DNA of 64,000 nt from a virus. The position numbers were made by a program, and so were the translations under genes. The stretch is taken from the IMG/VR virus record IMGVR_UViG_3300017917_000332, positions 1-64,000 of that record. One strand, given 5' to 3'. This document shows, piece by piece, positions 6,395 to 62,272 of the stretch (the stretch's first letter is position 1; the number at the start of each line of letters is the position of its first letter). The notes below the pieces were generated by a model. It ran no database searches. It was not told the origin of the DNA and saw nothing but the letters and a program-made list of their open reading frames with translations.

Positions 6395-6922
6395 ATGAAA
6401 TTAATTAGAAACTGTAGTGATATAATTGATTGGGACTACGAAATATCGTTGTTGACTGACGGCAACAGGTTAGTTTACAATGATCAATCCTTTAACAAAG
6501 ATCTACCCCAATTCGCTAAAATGGATAAAGTTTGGCAAGACGCTGGGTATCAATATAACACTGACAGTATTGAGTGGATAAATTATTTTCCAAGGAAAGA
6601 ACTTATTGATAAGTTTTCCGAGCTAGTCGAAGCTAAACCGTGGATGGTTTGGTTCAGTAGAATAAAGCCTGGCAAGATGGCACCATGGCACGAGGATGTA
6701 CATTCAAAAATCAACGAAGTATTGTCTTTAGGAACACCTGTTAGATTCACCTGTTATGTACAGAACCCTCATGTAGGTCATGTTAGTATTGTAGAAAAAC
6801 ATTGTGTGTACATGCCTAATAAAGGGGACATCTATCAATGGCCTTCGCACGATGCGTGGCATTGCGGAATGAACGGCGGACTAGTTGACAAATATATGTT
6901 TAACTTTTGGGGTTACAGATGA
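6395..6922 (+). CDS. 2-oxoglutarate/Fe(II) oxygenase-like protein
   Basis: A 175-residue protein with the Asp/Asn beta-hydroxylase-like layout. A metal-binding HxD (His99-Glu-Asp101 in APWHEDVH) lies on one strand. A distal His156 (DAWHCGMN) is followed by a C-terminal YMFNFWGYR strand whose Arg could bind 2-oxoglutarate. It is directly upstream of the halogenase, with an ATGA stop/start overlap, so the two are almost certainly cotranslated and may act in one pathway. The fold assignment is from motifs; the substrate is unknown. Confidence 0.65.
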   Translation: MKLIRNCSDIIDWDYEISLLTDGNRLVYNDQSFNKDLPQFAKMDKVWQDAGYQYNTDSIEWINYFPRKELIDKFSELVEAKPWMVWFSRIKPGKMAPWHEDVHSKINEVLSLGTPVRFTCYVQNPHVGHVSIVEKHCVYMPNKGDIYQWPSHDAWHCGMNGGLVDKYMFNFWGYR

Positions 6923-8511
6923 ATATAGTTATTGTAGGCGGCGGTTCAGCAGGTTGGATGACTGCTGGTTGGTTATCAAAAAAGAATCCGGGAAATAACA
7001 TTACTGTCATTGAAAGTAGCAATATACCTAAAATAGGTGTAGGTGAAAGCGTTACACCTCACGTTGCATCCTTCTTTTTAGAAATGGGTATTCCTGCAAA
7101 CCATTGGATGAACGCAACCGGATCTATCTATAAATTAGCTAACAAGTTTGTAAACTGGAAGACTGGCCAAGGTGAATACGAGTACTTCAGTTTTAACTAT
7201 ACCGTAGACAGTAACTTCTACTATAAAGATATAAGCCATCCGATATCTAAAGCAGACTGGCTAATATCTAATGACACGCAAAATAAAACTACAGACATCA
7301 TCTTAGAACTTATAAAGAACAAAGACCTTGATAAGTTTGACAAATATTTTAACAGTCAATACCACTACATGGAGAAAAACGTTTCTCCCTTCCTAGATGG
7401 AAAGTATTTACTTAACCCAATATACAGTTGGAGTCAACACATTAACGCCGACCTTGCGGCTGAATATATAAGAGATCACATTGCAATTCCAAACGGAGTT
7501 ACACTAATTAATCAAAAGATTACTAGCGTACAGACAACTGAAGGTTATATAAACTCTGTGACATTAGAAGATGGTAGGGTAGTAACTGCTGACTTGTTTG
7601 TTGATGCTTCAGGCTTCCATAAACTACTAACTAACGCTGTGGGCTGGAAGGAAAAAGTCTATACAGACAATCCTATAGATAGAGCATGGGTGTGTCAGCT
7701 AGACTATGAAAACCACGAATCTGAAATGGTTAACTATACACAAAGTATTGCCCAAAATCATGGTTGGTTATTTAAGATTGGATTGTATCATCGCATGGGG
7801 TCTGGATACTGTTATAGTTCTAGTCACTTGTCTGACGAACAAGCACTAGCTGATTATAAGTCTATGGTAAAGAATCTAAAGAGAGAACCAAGGCTAATAA
7901 AATGGACCCCGTCAAGATTAGAAAAGATGGCTGATAAAAATCTAGTAGCTGTAGGATTAAGTTGCGGATTTGTAGAGCCTATGGAAGCTAATGCTTTGTT
8001 TATTATTATCAACAGCATCGGTCAGCTTTCTTCTGCTATTAGACAGCAACAAGAAAAACAAGTTTGGGATTTTACTGAATTAAACGAAAAGCTGTCATAT
8101 GCTATTGACGATATTGCAGACTTTATTAAAGTTCACTATACACTAAGCAACAGAACACAAACAGATTTTTGGAACGACATGCGAGAATTACATAGAAAAG
8201 AAAACCATGTTGATCTTATCTACTCTAAGTATGTTCATCCTAACAATGTTATGACAAATGCTGTATCCGGATATTCATTATTTCCAGATTACATGTGGGC
8301 ACAATTAGCAACAGCATGGGACATAGACACTACAGGATGGTACAAGACTCCAGATCCGTTGACTGTAGAATTAGGCAAGATGCACTTTCAACACCAAGAA
8401 AGAAAGCACAATCTTGTATCTAGTAATATGGAAAACAACTTTAGATGGCTACAGTCTAATATCTTTAATGGACTTAGTTCTGCCGAATGGCAACAAAAGT
8501 ATATTAGTTAA
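6919..8511 (+). CDS. Flavin-dependent tryptophan-halogenase family protein
   Basis: A 530-residue flavoprotein. The FAD-binding GGGSAG is at 7-12, PKIGVGESVTP at 37-47, and the region around the catalytic lysine is IYKLANKFVNW, with Lys72 in the place of the PrnA Lys79. The conserved GFVEPMEAN block is near 351-358. The WxWxIP signature of characterised tryptophan halogenases is replaced by WLFKIG (283-288), so substrate or activity may differ. FADH2-dependent halogenases form hypohalous acid that chlorinates or brominates a nucleophilic substrate. The ATG start overlaps the TGA of the oxygenase. The frame opens 12 bases earlier at a TTG, which I reject. Homologues occur in cyanophages. Confidence 0.85.
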   Translation: MNIVIVGGGSAGWMTAGWLSKKNPGNNITVIESSNIPKIGVGESVTPHVASFFLEMGIPANHWMNATGSIYKLANKFVNWKTGQGEYEYFSFNYTVDSNFYYKDISHPISKADWLISNDTQNKTTDIILELIKNKDLDKFDKYFNSQYHYMEKNVSPFLDGKYLLNPIYSWSQHINADLAAEYIRDHIAIPNGVTLINQKITSVQTTEGYINSVTLEDGRVVTADLFVDASGFHKLLTNAVGWKEKVYTDNPIDRAWVCQLDYENHESEMVNYTQSIAQNHGWLFKIGLYHRMGSGYCYSSSHLSDEQALADYKSMVKNLKREPRLIKWTPSRLEKMADKNLVAVGLSCGFVEPMEANALFIIINSIGQLSSAIRQQQEKQVWDFTELNEKLSYAIDDIADFIKVHYTLSNRTQTDFWNDMRELHRKENHVDLIYSKYVHPNNVMTNAVSGYSLFPDYMWAQLATAWDIDTTGWYKTPDPLTVELGKMHFQHQERKHNLVSSNMENNFRWLQSNIFNGLSSAEWQQKYIS

Positions 8512-11986: not shown

Positions 11987-13123
11987 TTATTTAAGTATTT
12001 TAGATAAGGTGTCTTTAATAAATGTCATTTCTTCTTGAGAAATGTCATAAAAACATAAATGCCAAAACTTGTCCCAGTTGTGATATAGACCAGAGTCATT
12101 TAGTGTTTGTTGAAAATTAGTAAAATCATTAGGATACGCTTGTATCATACTACCTTTAGCTGTAGCTGTTATACCCTTGTCTAGAAATATAGTTTCTAAG
12201 CTCTTGACATAAGGTATAACTGTGTTGTCTATGTAAGATAATAAGTTATTATTGTTAATAAAATCAATTGTTGCTACTGCGGCAACTGCACCTATAGTGT
12301 TAGTACTCCTAGTGTTACCTATTGCCAACCAACTGTTACTTACAACTTCTGTAATTTTAGAATCAAGAACAGTCAAACAGAGATTGTCGTGTCCTGAGGT
12401 CAATGCTTTTCCTAAAACTATTATGTTAGGCTTTAGTCCTAAAGAATGACTGTGTACCCAACAACCCATTCGTCCTATACCCGTTAGCACTTCGTCAACG
12501 CATAATAAAAGATTGTGTTTAGTAATTGTAGTTTGTAAAGAATTCCACCAATCGGCTGGGTTATCAGATAGGCCTTTTCCCCAAGGTACTGTATCTACTA
12601 ACACGCCTGCTATATTGTCTGCACCAATTTGGTTAACAGTTAATTCTAAATCATCAAAAAATTCTACAAATGTTACTGACGGCCAGTCTTTGCTAAAAGG
12701 TTGCCCGTGAACCATTTGCCATCCTGTAATCGAGCCACTGTGGTAACTATTTTTTCTAACAAGAATAACATTTCTTTTCTGTCCTTGTTCAGCCCAGTAG
12801 TTCCACATTATTTTTATAGCATTATCTACGGCATCGCTACCTGACAGTGCAGATATAAAAGAGCTATATCTACTATCAGTAATAGCATCAATAGACTCTT
12901 CTAAGTCGTTCCAAACTTTATGTTTCAGTCTCCAGAAACTTGTATTAGCATTATCTAAATGTAACTTTATTCTATCAGTAATAAACTTGTTACCGTAGCC
13001 TAATACGTTAGTGCCTGCAGATGCATGTAGATCAAATTTATTATTGATGTAATGACCAGATGCATTTAACAACACATCTGAGTTGTATCCTTGGTTTATT
13101 GTAAAAATATCTAAACGTTTCAT
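11987..13123 (-). CDS. Class III PLP-dependent aminotransferase
   Basis: A 378-residue enzyme. LSGSDAVDNAIK (94-104) is the phosphate-binding region, CVDEVLTGIGRMG (208-220) holds the cofactor-contacting Asp210, and VLGKALTSG contains the PLP lysine Lys239. GNTRSTNTIG corresponds to the threonine/phosphate loop. It is somewhat shorter than typical class III enzymes (420-460 residues). Such enzymes transaminate omega-amino acids, glutamate semialdehyde or similar amines. The start overlaps the end of the amidinotransferase gene by 4 bases, which suggests a shared pathway on an amine or guanidino compound. Confidence 0.85.
   Translation of the reverse strand: MKRLDIFTINQGYNSDVLLNASGHYINNKFDLHASAGTNVLGYGNKFITDRIKLHLDNANTSFWRLKHKVWNDLEESIDAITDSRYSSFISALSGSDAVDNAIKIMWNYWAEQGQKRNVILVRKNSYHSGSITGWQMVHGQPFSKDWPSVTFVEFFDDLELTVNQIGADNIAGVLVDTVPWGKGLSDNPADWWNSLQTTITKHNLLLCVDEVLTGIGRMGCWVHSHSLGLKPNIIVLGKALTSGHDNLCLTVLDSKITEVVSNSWLAIGNTRSTNTIGAVAAVATIDFINNNNLLSYIDNTVIPYVKSLETIFLDKGITATAKGSMIQAYPNDFTNFQQTLNDSGLYHNWDKFWHLCFYDISQEEMTFIKDTLSKILK
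11988..11994 (-). promoter_or_regulatory. Possible late promoter box TTAAATA
   Basis: On the minus strand TTAAATA lies 18 bases before the ATG at 11969, followed by a CAGGAG ribosome binding site. It overlaps the last codons of the aminotransferase gene. Confidence 0.4.
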
Positions 13124-23640: not shown

Positions 23641-24730
23641 GATCTTCTTTCTTAACAGTTCCCTCAACTAATTGTTTAAGATTAGTTGAACAACTCTTAA
23701 CACATACTAATTTCTTATCAGTTGTAAAGTGCTTGGGCAAGGTTTCATTCCAATTTGAGTCTAACAATACTTGTATAATGTTAGAACCATGCAATGATGG
23801 AATACCAATATCTTGTTTGATATCTTCTCCGGATATGCGCAATCTTTCTCTGATAATAAAGTCTGCGCCAGTAGTTGGTAAATGCTCTGCTGTCATTAAA
23901 CTACCAACGAAACAACATGGCCATACTTCTCCAAGCGCATTTACAAATAAATCTTTTCCTGTTGCACACTTGGCATCGATAATAGAATCATCAATCATCT
24001 TTTTGTAGACTTCTTTATCAACTAGTCTAACAAAATTTGGTTGCATTACTTTTTCGCCAAACTCAGGAAGTGTTGGACTTTGAATGTAGTATTCAATGTT
24101 TCCTTGCTTATCTTTAACGGGATAATTTTCTAATCCGTAAAATCTTTGTGTTGGTTTTAAAGCAACTTCGTCAAAGCCTAGACCTAATAGAAAGTCTTTT
24201 AGCTCGTGGACTCTAGCTTCATTATGCTTAAAAATAATAGTATCGGACTTTGCTCGGCCACCGGCTGCAATATATGTCTTTGCATTTTCAATAACCTTAG
24301 ACCAACTAGTGTTTCTTCTGTAGATTTCGTGTTCACCTTCAAACCCGTCAATGGCAAAAATAACATGACCTCTATTGCCAAGGACCTTAGCAAGACTTGT
24401 CCACCAGTCTTTGTTTCTTAGACTGCCGTTAGTGTGTATGTCAAGTCTACAGGTTTCTTTTGTGTTCTCTACAAGGTACTGAAAAATTTCTAAACAATCT
24501 CTAGCAAGTAGGGGATCTCCGTTATTGCCGCAGGCATAAAAGTGATCCAACTGCATTAGAAACTCTCTAGGAAACCACTGTTTAAATTCTTCTAACGAAA
24601 TTTCTACGTTTCTAATATGACTTCTTTCTGCACCACCAAATACGTTTCTTGGACACATAGGACACGCGGCTTGGCACTTATCAGTCAGCTCGATATGTAC
24701 TGATTTAATGTTATAAGGATATACTTGCAT
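23624..24730 (-). CDS. Radical SAM/SPASM-type protein (CQAACPMC)
   Basis: A 368-residue protein with the triad CQAACPMC (Cys19, 23, 26) followed by PRNVFGG. A C-terminal SPASM-like region has CATGKDLFVNALGEVWPCC and a late CVKSCS. I chose the ATG at 24730, which aligns with the start of its paralogue at 25318-26310; an ATG four codons earlier (24742) is also possible. It overlaps the methyltransferase gene upstream. It is last of a four-gene leftward operon (27281-23624) with three radical SAM proteins and one methyltransferase. Confidence 0.85.
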   Translation of the reverse strand: MQVYPYNIKSVHIELTDKCQAACPMCPRNVFGGAERSHIRNVEISLEEFKQWFPREFLMQLDHFYACGNNGDPLLARDCLEIFQYLVENTKETCRLDIHTNGSLRNKDWWTSLAKVLGNRGHVIFAIDGFEGEHEIYRRNTSWSKVIENAKTYIAAGGRAKSDTIIFKHNEARVHELKDFLLGLGFDEVALKPTQRFYGLENYPVKDKQGNIEYYIQSPTLPEFGEKVMQPNFVRLVDKEVYKKMIDDSIIDAKCATGKDLFVNALGEVWPCCFVGSLMTAEHLPTTGADFIIRERLRISGEDIKQDIGIPSLHGSNIIQVLLDSNWNETLPKHFTTDKKLVCVKSCSTNLKQLVEGTVKKEDPIKYW

Positions 24731-25331
24731 CGCGTTTTCCAATAATCATAAATCTTTTATATAAGGGTAACTCTAGTTCGCCGGCCCAGATAACATTTAA
24801 ACGACTTTGATCTTTAAACTGTTCTAAAGATTCAGCTATCCTTACGTGTTCTGGTATTTGATAGTTGTTAGACTGCAACACAATCAAACTATCTAAAGGT
24901 AATTTAGATAGCCACTTATCGTATTGCTCTTGTGTAATGTGTTCAAAGCTAGTGTTGATAATAATGTCAGCGCGACTATTGTATTCGCACATATCAGCAG
25001 TTACAGCACGAAACCGTCCTGTTTGTAGTTCTAGCTGATTCATTGTGTTGGCAATCTCTTCGCAGGTTGGGTCTATGTCAATACTGGTTATTCTTTCAAT
25101 AAACATAGTGCTTTGAAACATCAAACTTGCTAGAGTGCCTACCCAACCTCCGTGAATGTCTATAGTTGGCCAATCTTTATGATGATATCGTTGCTTCTGT
25201 AGCTCATCAATAAGCCATTCTTTACTACGTATCTGTCCCTTCCAGAATGCGTCCATAGTACGCATAGGATCTTTGCTGTTTCTAATAGCTAACATCCAGT
25301 AATGGATGTGATCGAGGTCAAGCTCTATCAA
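24711..25331 (-). CDS. Class I SAM-dependent methyltransferase-like protein
   Basis: A 206-residue protein. IDIHGGWVGTLASLMF matches motif I of Rossmann methyltransferases, ITSIDIDPTCEEIA carries the acidic residue that binds SAM ribose, RAVTADMCEY the adenine-contact Asp, and ADIIINTSFEHI the motif IV region (NTSFEH in place of N/D-PPY). It is embedded between two SPASM-type radical SAM genes and overlaps both, so it probably acts on the same substrate. Target unknown. Confidence 0.7.
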   Translation of the reverse strand: MIELDLDHIHYWMLAIRNSKDPMRTMDAFWKGQIRSKEWLIDELQKQRYHHKDWPTIDIHGGWVGTLASLMFQSTMFIERITSIDIDPTCEEIANTMNQLELQTGRFRAVTADMCEYNSRADIIINTSFEHITQEQYDKWLSKLPLDSLIVLQSNNYQIPEHVRIAESLEQFKDQSRLNVIWAGELELPLYKRFMIIGKRDASISL

Positions 25332-26310
25332 ACTGTGCTCCTAGCTTATCAAATTTACCGCACTGTTTAGCACACTCTAACAAAGGCTCTTTGTCCCAAG
25401 TGTCTGATATCTTTCCAAAATATCCACTATCAAACATTTCTTTTAGAGACATTTTGTTAAGATTAGGAATAGTTCTAATACGATCCATATAGTCTACTCG
25501 AGAATCTTGCCTAGGCAAAATCCATTGGAAATCTAACCAACAGCAGGGACTTACGTTTCCGTTTGCCGCAACATAAAGTTGATTAGTTTGTTTTGCTTTA
25601 CAACTAATTGATGAAGGCTTAATCTCAATAATAGATTCTTGAACCTGCTGTATCATTCCAGAACTTCTTTCTGTAGGATAAATGATATGAGTAGTATAAC
25701 CTTCATCGTCGAGAACATGTAATTTGTTCCCTGTAAACCGTGAAGTATGTTTTGTAGTAAAGTGTTTGAATCCGTATTGCTCGCTAAGAGCTTTGCAGTC
25801 CTCTACTTGATGTTCGTTATGTTTAAAAACTAGCATGTGCCATTCAGCATTGCCACCTGCTTCGATAAATGCCTTAGCATTTTCAATAATCTTGTGCCAG
25901 TCCGTTGATATACGATATAAATGATGTGTGTCAGCTAGTCCATCTATGCCAAAAGTAGTTCTTACATCAAGTTTAGCAAGCTCTTTCCACCATTCGGTAG
26001 TCCTAGCACTTCCGTTAGTATGCATACTCAAAGCAATATTAGGGTTATGCTCTTTGAGATACTGATAAATTTCTAAAGTATCTTGGGCAATAATAGGATC
26101 GCCTAGGTTACCACACATGATTAAACTTCCTAGTTGCTTAACAAAGTCAACTGGGAACCATTCTTTAAACTGTTCAAGTGTAATCTCCTCAAGGTCAATT
26201 AACGGATTCATTATACCGCCATTGACTCTTCTAGGACACATAGGACACCTAGCTTGGCATTTAGATGTTACTTCAAGGTGTATAGATTTTATATCTTCGT
26301 AATTGTACAT
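25318..26310 (-). CDS. Radical SAM/SPASM-type protein (CQARCPMC)
   Basis: A 330-residue protein with the triad CQARCPMC (Cys18, 22, 25), then PRRVNGG. MCGNLGDP near residue 66 stands where GGEP is expected, and a C-terminal SPASM-like set has CKAKQTNQLYVAANGNVSPCC and CAKQCGK. It is a close paralogue of 23624-24730 and more distantly of 15398-16507. It overlaps its neighbours by 14 and 22 bases. Confidence 0.85.
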   Translation of the reverse strand: MYNYEDIKSIHLEVTSKCQARCPMCPRRVNGGIMNPLIDLEEITLEQFKEWFPVDFVKQLGSLIMCGNLGDPIIAQDTLEIYQYLKEHNPNIALSMHTNGSARTTEWWKELAKLDVRTTFGIDGLADTHHLYRISTDWHKIIENAKAFIEAGGNAEWHMLVFKHNEHQVEDCKALSEQYGFKHFTTKHTSRFTGNKLHVLDDEGYTTHIIYPTERSSGMIQQVQESIIEIKPSSISCKAKQTNQLYVAANGNVSPCCWLDFQWILPRQDSRVDYMDRIRTIPNLNKMSLKEMFDSGYFGKISDTWDKEPLLECAKQCGKFDKLGAQFDRA

Positions 26311-27281
26311 GTCTTTGGTATTTTCGAATCTGCTGAACTAACGCAACTAGGTGTAATACACTGTTGCGGTTGTTTAAACAATTCAAATCCTGTTGTTAGT
26401 GTGCCTAGTGGTTGATCGTGGCAACTGTAGCTACGTTTAACCTCGGCTCCCCTGATTATAACACTTTGATATCCAGCATTACAAGTCCAGTTGGTAAATT
26501 TATTAAATCCAAATGCATTAAATCTTTCAGCTTGATCAAACAAGTATTCTGTGTTGTCTTTGTCATACAGAGCAATTTGATAAACTTCTTCACCTTGAGA
26601 CTGTTGAGGGAAACCATTTTTCATTAAATGAATCATGTCTTCAGTATATCCATCAACTACTTGACTAGCAGTTGGATCGCTTTGTGGCTTTAGAGTAACG
26701 TTAATTCCTCTACTGTGCAGTCTAGACATCCTGTCGTAAAGCTCGTAGAACTTTTCTGGAACCATAACTTGATTAACAGTAACGTAGACGTTTTCGTCAA
26801 TAAGTTTTAAACACTTGTCTCCAAATTCAGATTCTTTAGCAAATTCTGCATGATAGCTGGCTGTAATACTTCTGCGCTGTAAAGCAGATGTTATACTTGC
26901 CCAGGTCTTCCACCAATTGATGCTGGGACTAAGATTAGTAGTCATGTGTATGCTTTGATATGGGCTGACTAAATCTTGTTCTAAATGTCTAGTTAGGTCT
27001 AGCAGTCTTTTATAAGCAGTAGGTTCCCCGCCACTAAAACTCCAATGAAATTCAGTAAATCCATTTTGGCGAGCTTGCCGTTTGATTTCATCAATAGTCT
27101 GAACATATAATTCAAATGATTGGTAATCGAGCTCATCGGACCTAGCATAGGGCCAGCAGTAAGAACATTTATAATTACAGAAGCGACCAAGTATCCAACT
27201 AACAGAAAACAATGGCCTATTGAGCATTGTCCTTTGTCCAAAACGGACAATATCCTTAAATGGTATAGTATCGAAGTTCAT
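26289..27281 (-). CDS. Radical SAM protein (CNYKCSYC)
   Basis: A 330-residue protein with the triad CNYKCSYC (Cys35, 39, 42), a SGGEPTAY motif, and a C-terminal WTCNAGYQSVIIRGAEVKRSYSC plus a late Cys pair. It is a paralogue of 19107-20123 and 20101-20994. The frame allows a GTG at 27287, but the ATG at 27281 has the late box 6 bases upstream. It is first in the leftward operon. Its start codon abuts the -35 box of the rightward promoter for the tRNA-like gene. Confidence 0.85.
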   Translation of the reverse strand: MNFDTIPFKDIVRFGQRTMLNRPLFSVSWILGRFCNYKCSYCWPYARSDELDYQSFELYVQTIDEIKRQARQNGFTEFHWSFSGGEPTAYKRLLDLTRHLEQDLVSPYQSIHMTTNLSPSINWWKTWASITSALQRRSITASYHAEFAKESEFGDKCLKLIDENVYVTVNQVMVPEKFYELYDRMSRLHSRGINVTLKPQSDPTASQVVDGYTEDMIHLMKNGFPQQSQGEEVYQIALYDKDNTEYLFDQAERFNAFGFNKFTNWTCNAGYQSVIIRGAEVKRSYSCHDQPLGTLTTGFELFKQPQQCITPSCVSSADSKIPKTCTITKI

Positions 27282-27309
27282 TGACACTATTTACAAACGA
27301 ATATATAAT
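27281..27309 (+). promoter_or_regulatory. Consensus sigma70 promoter for the tRNA-like gene
   Basis: TTGACA (27281-27286), a 17-base spacer and TATAAT (27304-27309) are a perfect match. Seven bases after the -10 box is the first base of the tRNA-like gene (27316), so the transcript should start at the acceptor stem with no leader. Confidence 0.85.
27288..27295 (-). promoter_or_regulatory. T4-type late promoter box TGTAAATA
   Basis: On the minus strand TGTAAATA is followed by GTGTCA and the ATG at 27281. It lies inside the spacer of the opposing sigma70 promoter. Confidence 0.55.
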
Positions 27310-27315
27310 TACAAT

Positions 27316-27424
27316 GTAGACGTGAGTGTAACTGGTAAACCTCCTCCAAAGGCTTCGGCCGGCGGAGGGTCCGGGGCTAGCCAATATGGCGCCTTTGTAG
27401 GTTCGAATCCTACCGTCTACACCA
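27316..27424 (+). tRNA. tRNA-like RNA with CCA but no recognisable anticodon loop
   Basis: The 109 bases have a perfect 7-bp acceptor stem (GTAGACG/CGTCTAC), discriminator A, encoded CCA, and a perfect T arm (GTAGG, loop TTCGAAT, CCTAC; 27397-27413). A D-like arm (27324-27343) pairs GAG/CTC and GT/AC around a loop with GG. The middle is abnormal: 27344-27367 forms CTCC/GGAG, then an internal loop and GGC-TTCG-GCC, a UUCG tetraloop where the anticodon loop should be. A second hairpin (27375-27393) follows. The central part is GC-rich, unlike its surroundings. It could be a tRNA-like regulatory RNA, a tRNA with an insert, or a decayed tRNA; no anticodon is assigned. Confidence 0.7.
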
Positions 27425-28340: not shown

Positions 28341-28491
28341 AGCAGAAGAAATTTTTGAAGAAATTCCCGGGGATCCCGATAACGTCATGATGAAAATTCC
28401 TGACGAAATTTGTGAAGCCCAGGGATGGAAAGAGGGAGACACATTGAATATTCAAGTAGAAGACGGTAAGATTATCGTCACAAAGGTATAA
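28318..28491 (+). CDS. AbrB/SpoVT-like small DNA-binding protein
   Basis: A 57-residue protein whose C-terminal half (MMKIPDEICEAQGWKEGDTLNIQVEDGKIIVTKV in outline: IP-x-E-I, GWKEGD, a variable strand, then DGKIIV) matches the swapped-hairpin AbrB/MazE domain. Such proteins are transition-state regulators or antitoxins. No toxin-like partner sits beside it. Start at 28318 or 28324; both overlap the upstream gene. The stop overlaps the IF-1 start by one base. Confidence 0.7.
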   Translation: MTMQRTFKAEEIFEEIPGDPDNVMMKIPDEICEAQGWKEGDTLNIQVEDGKIIVTKV

Positions 28492-28709
28492 TGGCAAAAG
28501 ACGATATCATTGAACTAACTGGTGTTGTTGAGGAAGTATTGCCAGGCAACATGTTTAGAGTTAAGGTAGAAAACATGCAGGCTATTTTACTCTGTTACAT
28601 GGGTGGAAAATTAAAACAACATAAGATCCGAATAATCTTAGGTGATAAGGTCAAAGTGGAAGTAAGCCCATACGATCTTACGAAGGGTAGAGTAACTTAT
28701 AGGTTATAA
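28491..28709 (+). CDS. infA: Translation initiation factor IF-1
   Basis: A 72-residue OB-fold protein, the normal IF-1 length. MAKDDIIELTGVVEEVLPGNMFRVKVEN and the end GDKVKVEVSPYDLTKGRVTYRL (in outline) follow bacterial IF-1 closely, including the PYDLxKGR signature. IF-1 binds the 30S A site with IF-2 and IF-3 and tunes start-site selection. The MR/RNYIRI region is KLKQHKIRII here, with IRI kept. It overlaps the AbrB-like gene by one base (TAATG). A phage copy may bias host ribosomes towards phage mRNAs, which fits the predicted leaderless late messages; that link is inference. Confidence 0.9.
   Translation: MAKDDIIELTGVVEEVLPGNMFRVKVENMQAILLCYMGGKLKQHKIRIILGDKVKVEVSPYDLTKGRVTYRL

Positions 28710-50542: not shown

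Positions 50543-62272
<11,730 letters not shown>

Follow-up and report, generated by a model that had tools for sequence, protein, structure and literature searches.

The tRNA-like domain of tmRNA is a tRNA mimic without a decoding anticodon, and a G-U pair at 3-70 marks alanine RNAs. Allo-tRNAs and irregular tRNAs retain an anticodon, and enzymes of the PEARL type use ordinary host tRNA. In the excerpts of the published work at hand, PEARL and other natural-product enzymes use aminoacyl-tRNA as a donor outside the ribosome, tmRNA is charged with alanine (PMC8394870), and allo-tRNAs and irregular tRNAs with odd stem lengths have been found in environmental metatranscriptomes (PMC7609411). The excerpts at hand also describe YrlA, a small RNA resembling tRNA that accompanies Ro60-type genes in bacteria and phages (PMC7790460, PMC8394870): its 5' and 3' ends pair in the Rsr-binding stem (PMC8394870), and competitive inhibition of an anticodon nuclease by a tRNA-like RNA has been suggested for it (PMC7790460).

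Here we describe a tRNA-like RNA without an anticodon (TLR) that is encoded by large, uncultured phages. With tRNA-Leu (class II, RF00005) it shares the acceptor, the T arm, the bases A14 A15, G18 G19 and A20a, A73, CCA and the long variable arm; it differs from tRNA-Leu in having no anticodon arm, in its length of 95-119 nt and in a promoter placed directly at base 1. Compared with tmRNA, the TLR has no mRNA-like domain or tag frame, its D arm and variable arm are intact, and its 3-70 pair is A-U or G-C (44-sequence alignment), not the alanine-type G-U. Its ends lie on the acceptor stem, whereas those of YrlA, according to the excerpts cited above, lie on the Rsr-binding stem. With the allo-tRNAs it shares an odd tRNA shape but not the anticodon. 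By the features tested, the TLR is neither a tRNA, a tmRNA nor a YrlA; it would join tmRNA and Y RNA as a non-decoding tRNA mimic with the architecture of neither. No description of such an RNA was found in the literature searched, preprints and most subscription journals being outside the search.

Results

A class II tRNA-like RNA without an anticodon arm

The window analysed here is a stretch of 64,000 nucleotides that forms part of a 74,452-base IMG/VR virus record. The TLR that it encodes (Table 1) is, to judge from its sequence, a class II tRNA-like molecule with acceptor, Leu-type D arm, T arm, variable arm, A73 and CCA. An earlier sequence-only reading of the window had claimed a perfect acceptor stem, T arm, discriminator and CCA, all of which we located, and a hairpin closed by UUCG at the site of the anticodon arm, which is present; the family retains no anticodon. 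That reading had also seen a further hairpin lengthening the RNA to 109 nt: the length was right, and the hairpin turned out to be the long variable arm typical of class II tRNAs. In addition, the account needed correcting for the D arm, which is present in the window TLR and is of the Leu type.

Table 1. Position of the TLR, its promoter and neighbouring genes in the window; for the vWA proteins, positions refer to the loci named.
Feature	Position	Strand	Remarks
Tryptophan halogenase	6907-8511		window 1-27287 island
Class III aminotransferase	11987-13123		window 1-27287 island
Protein of ~200 aa, two genes upstream	24711..25331	-	methyltransferase-like motif (by eye); frequent neighbour
Radical-SAM protein, divergent	26289..27287	-	commonest TLR neighbour; frame enters TLR -35 box
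Sigma70-type promoter TTGACA-17-TATAAT	27281..27309	+	TTGACA 27281-27286, 17-nt spacer, TATAAT 27304-27309, 6 nt, then G27316; expected +1 at 27316
tRNA-like RNA without anticodon (TLR)	27316..27424	+	109 nt
Acceptor stem, 5' half GTAGACG	27316..27322	+	G27316 is base 1; 7 bp with CGTCTAC at 27414-27420
U8 and D arm	27323..27342	+	tRNA-Leu-like D loop (A14 A15, G18 G19, A20a)
Hairpin at anticodon-arm position	27343..27368	+	CCUCC / AAA GGC UUCG GCC GGC / GGAGG
Variable arm, long, two-part	27369..27396	+	
T arm GTAGG-TTCGAAT-CCTAC	27397..27413	+	loop TTCGAAT
Acceptor 3' half CGTCTAC, A73 and CCA	27414..27424	+	A73 is 27421; encoded CCA is 27422-27424
ORF of 109 aa	27452..27781	+	signal-peptide-like start; 27 nt past CCA
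DUF2828/DUF7788 vWA proteins near TLR	L346:66-1478, L354:9278-10687, L372:5330-6739		

ARAGORN reported no tRNA and no tmRNA in the window, and Rfam gave no match at gathering level for the RNA. Of the tRNA and tmRNA models that the earlier reading had proposed to run, the Rfam tRNA model (RF00005) scored the window TLR at 27.8 bits, slightly below its threshold of 29, and tmRNA gave no match; a divergent copy from locus L354 exceeded the tRNA threshold with 29.8 bits. tmRNA was ruled out for this 109-nt RNA, as neither ARAGORN nor Rfam supports it, and a selenocysteine tRNA has no support from either program. Folded alone, the window TLR has a z-score of -2.90, with 3 of 200 shuffles equally good. 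Four other homologues were unremarkable by the same single-sequence folding (z from -0.34 to -1.78), so the case for the structure rests on covariation.

The cloverleaf is conserved and its stems covary

We collected 150 distinct TLR homologues of 95-119 nt from IMG/VR viral contigs, using relatives of the neighbouring radical-SAM gene, relatives of a downstream gene and exact RNA patterns (RNA ends or D arm). The earlier reading had called for covariation across homologues from viral metagenomes. In an alignment of 44 sequences the covariation score was 0.366, compared with 0.119 after shuffling and at most 0.080 when the partners were slid, and 96.8% of the cloverleaf cells were paired (83.1% when shuffled). 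Decayed acceptor stems, the sign of a pseudogene for which that reading had proposed to look, were not seen: pairing in this stem is 100% over the 44 sequences, and five of its seven pairs show compensatory change. Compensatory changes support the acceptor stem, the replacement arm and the variable arm, and the D stem is uninformative because it never varies. The earlier proposal of a tRNA mimic whose acceptor, elbow and CCA are under selection is borne out.

A separate search used the 23 nt of the 3' end only and set no condition on the D arm or the middle of the RNA. A matching 5' acceptor was found at all 80 loci recovered, which represent 57 distinct RNAs; U8, A14 A15, G18 G19 and A20a are present in 57/57, and ordinary tRNA length was found in none. 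A divergent subgroup carries the D arm GTAAGCAAATAGGCAAAGCTC (17 stretches, some of them in phage tRNA arrays). The full CCA is absent from 2 of 143 TLRs, and the divergent copy of L356 ends in TAA. On sequence, the acceptor, elbow bases, T arm and CCA of the family are those of a tRNA.

The arm in place of the anticodon arm is variable

By folding, the replacement arm is between 12 and about 40 nt long, apart from one of 49 nt, and its apex is UUCG in 27 of 143 TLRs, the others being CUUG, GNRA-like, a pentaloop or larger loops. A 7-nt anticodon loop with a fixed anticodon was not found across the family. The motif AGUA...GAAC lies between CUCC and GGAG in 34 of the 150 distinct arms; we take it to be a bulged-G (loop E, sarcin-ricin-like) module resembling the sarcin-ricin stem of 23S rRNA. 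These 34 arms read CUCC[U/A]AGUA...GAACGGAG, as in L200, L273 and L361. The remaining arms have different internal loops, so there is no single conserved arm tip. The anticodon arm has been swapped for an arbitrary stable hairpin.

The sequence-only reading had left room for a tRNA carrying an insert. That option is disfavoured because the arms go down to 12 nt, less than the length of an ordinary anticodon arm; the idea of an otherwise normal tRNA interrupted by an intron or insert was rejected on the spread of arm lengths, the unrelated apices and the lack of any conserved anticodon loop. As to homologues with a normal anticodon loop, none of the 57 RNAs from the 3'-end search has normal tRNA length, with the reservation that a 5-bp stem with a 7-nt loop can be drawn for 14 of the 150 distinct arms, those with UUCG, UUUG or UUAG apices, and that the anticodons so obtained disagree. 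Such drawings total 17, and 133 of the 150 distinct arms cannot take this form. ARAGORN misses 246 of 283 TLR copies (redundant loci) and calls the other 37 tRNAs under conflicting names (Pro, Arg, Ser, Gly, Gln, Leu and undefined).

The promoter is aimed at base 1

A perfect sigma70 promoter aimed at the first acceptor base had been claimed for the window, where the match is exact, and the arrangement extends to the family. Allowing at most one mismatch, 146 of the 150 distinct upstream regions have a -10 box that stops precisely 6 nt short of base 1; in 2 more the distance is 7 nt. The -35 and -10 boxes, each with at most one mismatch, were found together upstream of 122 of the 150 TLRs, compared with 23 of 3780 positions drawn at random from these loci. 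Ordinary tRNAs of the TLR loci have a -10 box at 5-7 nt in 12 of 317 cases, and both boxes in 4 of 317. From the position of the promoter we infer that transcription starts at base 1; as the start would be set there by a host-type promoter, there would be no 5' leader and RNase P would be dispensable.

Downstream of the TLR, an ORF with a Shine-Dalgarno-like stretch usually starts 10-60 nt after the CCA, which makes it possible that a longer transcript is processed to give the RNA. No terminator was seen by eye in the short gap, and the 109-aa ORF of the window is probably on the same transcript as its TLR. The sequence TATAA[AG]TA closely follows the CCA in 31 of 71 downstream regions of GTGG-type TLRs and may serve the next gene as a late promoter of its own, perhaps of the T4 type.

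The TLR borders an island rich in radical-SAM genes

The radical-SAM type next to the window TLR is also found, divergent and no more than 150 nt away, in 88 of 121 pattern-found loci (those with 1 kb upstream), and in a larger set with selection bias the gene closest upstream is a radical-SAM gene in antisense orientation in 140 of 186 cases. Among the 34 proteins compared, the adjacent radical-SAM proteins are 71-80% identical to that of the window. The model of this protein (pLDDT 78) has MoaA and the peptide epimerase EpeE as its nearest folds, and lies also near radical-SAM proteins of uncultured and Campylobacter phages. In L035 and L052 no TLR separates the radical-SAM gene from the phage gene that it abuts; the record of L052 has a divergent TLR elsewhere (G010:4118-4229), and none was found in that of L035 (G004).

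Twelve proteins encoded in the first 27 kb of the window match Pfam Radical_SAM, eleven of them above the cut-off. Besides the halogenase and the aminotransferase, the island at 1-27287 encodes two Asp/Asn-hydroxylase-like proteins and a PP-loop-like protein, and from this gene content it looks like a viral biosynthetic cluster. The ~200-aa protein two genes upstream gave no match in Pfam, NCBIfam or PHROG. On the other side of the TLR, the window encodes the translation initiation factor IF-1 at 28491-28709 (TIGR00008, 95.6 bits), a gene found close to the TLR in 71 of 138 loci. A 3909-aa ORF occupies 50543-62272. The gene downstream varies among TLR groups (clusters 3, 8, 2 and 21), and a kinase-like AAA_33 gene lies near the TLR in 15 loci. 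L354, L355 and L356 are large phage arrays of 13, 40 and 26 tRNAs, respectively, each holding or bordered by a divergent TLR.

Distribution across viral records and databases

We searched 50 records of at least 50 kb, which had been chosen by the same features that are compared here and all of which may be fragments. The R1 covariance search, in which TLRs score at least 51 bits, reached this level in 38 of the 50, taken as TLR-bearing; the next best matches (43 bits or less) have ordinary tRNA length in the two that were looked at. Radical_SAM does not mark out TLR phages, as it is found on 37 of the 38 TLR-bearing records, and 9 of the 12 records with no strong TLR have it too. Of the 38, 24 encode the type adjacent to the TLR, in one case as a partial match of 52%, and so do 6 of the 12, one of these of 357 kb; the 14 TLR-bearing records where it was not found include ones of 345 kb and 199 kb. 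A strict pairing of the TLR with this gene was rejected on these 14 records, and from what the records encode the association is strong, not obligatory.

TROVE, the Ro60/Rsr partner of YrlA, was found in 0/50 records (one control genome was positive). DUF2828 was found in 12 of the 50, 11 of them with a TLR, and was not found on 27 of the 38 TLR-bearing records. As to enzymes of PEARL and FemABX systems, Acetyltransf_6/FemAB-like proteins (PF13480) were found in none of the 50 records, in a search with controls, and Lant_dehydr_C (PF14028) in none of 36 records, in a search without a positive control.

Outside this set, GTDB genomes yielded no TLR when scanned for exact matches to a single degenerate D-arm pattern of the main type, a pattern that would miss divergent copies. 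In INPHARED, blastn with three TLR variants gave T-arm and acceptor pieces of ordinary tRNAs or no match, and tblastn with the radical-SAM protein gave no match. On six named phage records (five isolates and one uncultured assembly), the top R1 score was 38.2 bits, the level of an ordinary tRNA.

Leucine as the candidate amino acid

The TLRs carry the tRNA-Leu features A73, A15, A20a and a long variable arm; bacterial SerRS favours G73. The three bases each occur in 33 of 33 phage tRNA-Leu, and their combination with class II length picks out 11 Leu, 2 Ser and 2 Tyr tRNAs among 282 phage tRNAs from the same loci as the TLRs. By D-arm similarity, a weaker indicator when used alone, Leu comes first for 2 of 5 TLR variants by mean score and for 4 of 5 by best match with TLR self-hits set aside; a Gly and a His tRNA are closer to the D arm of the window's variant. 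Leucine is our best guess from these features. In the part of the source at hand, tRNA elements other than the anticodon are important for recognition by LeuRS and SerRS (PMC7373986). A search of 36 of the 38 TLR-bearing records found no class I synthetase of the PF00133 type; charging would therefore need a host enzyme.

Discussion

We propose, with a probability of roughly 0.35, that the TLR is a phage-specific, non-decoding and leaderless tRNA mimic whose dedicated task is to donate or carry aminoacyl groups for the radical-SAM island that usually flanks it. The promoter would start the RNA at base 1, and the 3' side would be trimmed to the CCA. The host LeuRS would probably charge it, using parts of the tRNA other than the anticodon, and the leucyl-TLR, unable to decode, would act in trans and outside translation. 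A more specific form of this proposal is doubtful: an RNA stripped of its anticodon would keep its amino acid from translation, and the radical-SAM enzymes of the island would receive the TLR-borne amino acid or modify it on the RNA. Neither FemAB-like proteins nor Lant_dehydr_C, the latter searched without a positive control, was found, and no known aminoacyl-tRNA-using enzyme was identified among the records.

We place this proposal slightly ahead of a decoy or shield, which we hold to be possible yet somewhat unlikely. As such, an abundant early tRNA mimic, itself immune to anticodon nucleases, would occupy proteins that grip the acceptor end or the elbow (synthetase, EF-Tu, tRNA-end toxins or exonucleases), and translation would be protected or reprogrammed during infection. 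The strong promoter and the lack of a constant partner gene fit such a role, as do the TLRs within large phage tRNA arrays (13, 26 and 40 tRNAs) and the AAA_33 kinase-like gene near some of them. YrlA offers a precedent as a proposed anticodon-nuclease inhibitor, in the excerpts at hand (PMC7790460); however, a decoy for an anticodon nuclease would be expected to retain the anticodon loop, which the TLR has lost.

It is improbable that the TLR works in cis, as a tRNA-like 5' leader that protects the 5' end of the downstream mRNA or sets its expression. The ORF with its Shine-Dalgarno-like stretch shortly after the CCA and the gap free of visible terminators speak for a leader, but the downstream gene differs among groups, some TLRs sit among tRNAs, the GTGG-type downstream regions with TATAA[AG]TA may have a late promoter of their own, and a leader would not need a conserved CCA and A73. 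Still less probable is a Y-RNA-like scaffold, in which the replacement arm would bind the DUF2828 protein, which we take to be Ro60-like, and the tRNA part a nuclease. DUF2828 coincides with the TLR on 11 of its 12 records and lies near it in L346, L372 and L354, but most TLR-bearing records showed no DUF2828, none of the 50 has TROVE, the AlphaFold model of the DUF2828 protein is poor (pLDDT 44.7, 9 similar sequences) and a PDB sequence search with it gave no Ro60 match. The layout of YrlA is also the opposite one, its ends pairing in the Rsr-binding stem in the excerpts at hand (PMC8394870). A degenerate or odd tRNA, be it a pseudogene or a genuine tRNA with a forced anticodon reading, could appeal to the 14 drawable arms and to the 37 copies called by ARAGORN, but is largely refuted by the conflicting names, the 133 arms that cannot be so drawn and the selection on the stems, and we give it very little credence.

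The TLRs of uncultured phages form a large, conserved family of complete tRNAs minus the decoding end, with expression predicted to begin at base 1, and the family is largely invisible to tRNA finders and to Rfam. From its sequence, it would separate aminoacylation from decoding in nature. If the TLR is charged, it would point to a non-ribosomal use of aminoacyl-RNA in radical-SAM-rich phage islands, or to a new manipulation of host translation. If our reading of it as a carrier is true, the TLR would carry amino acids as a non-coding RNA that is itself genetically encoded.
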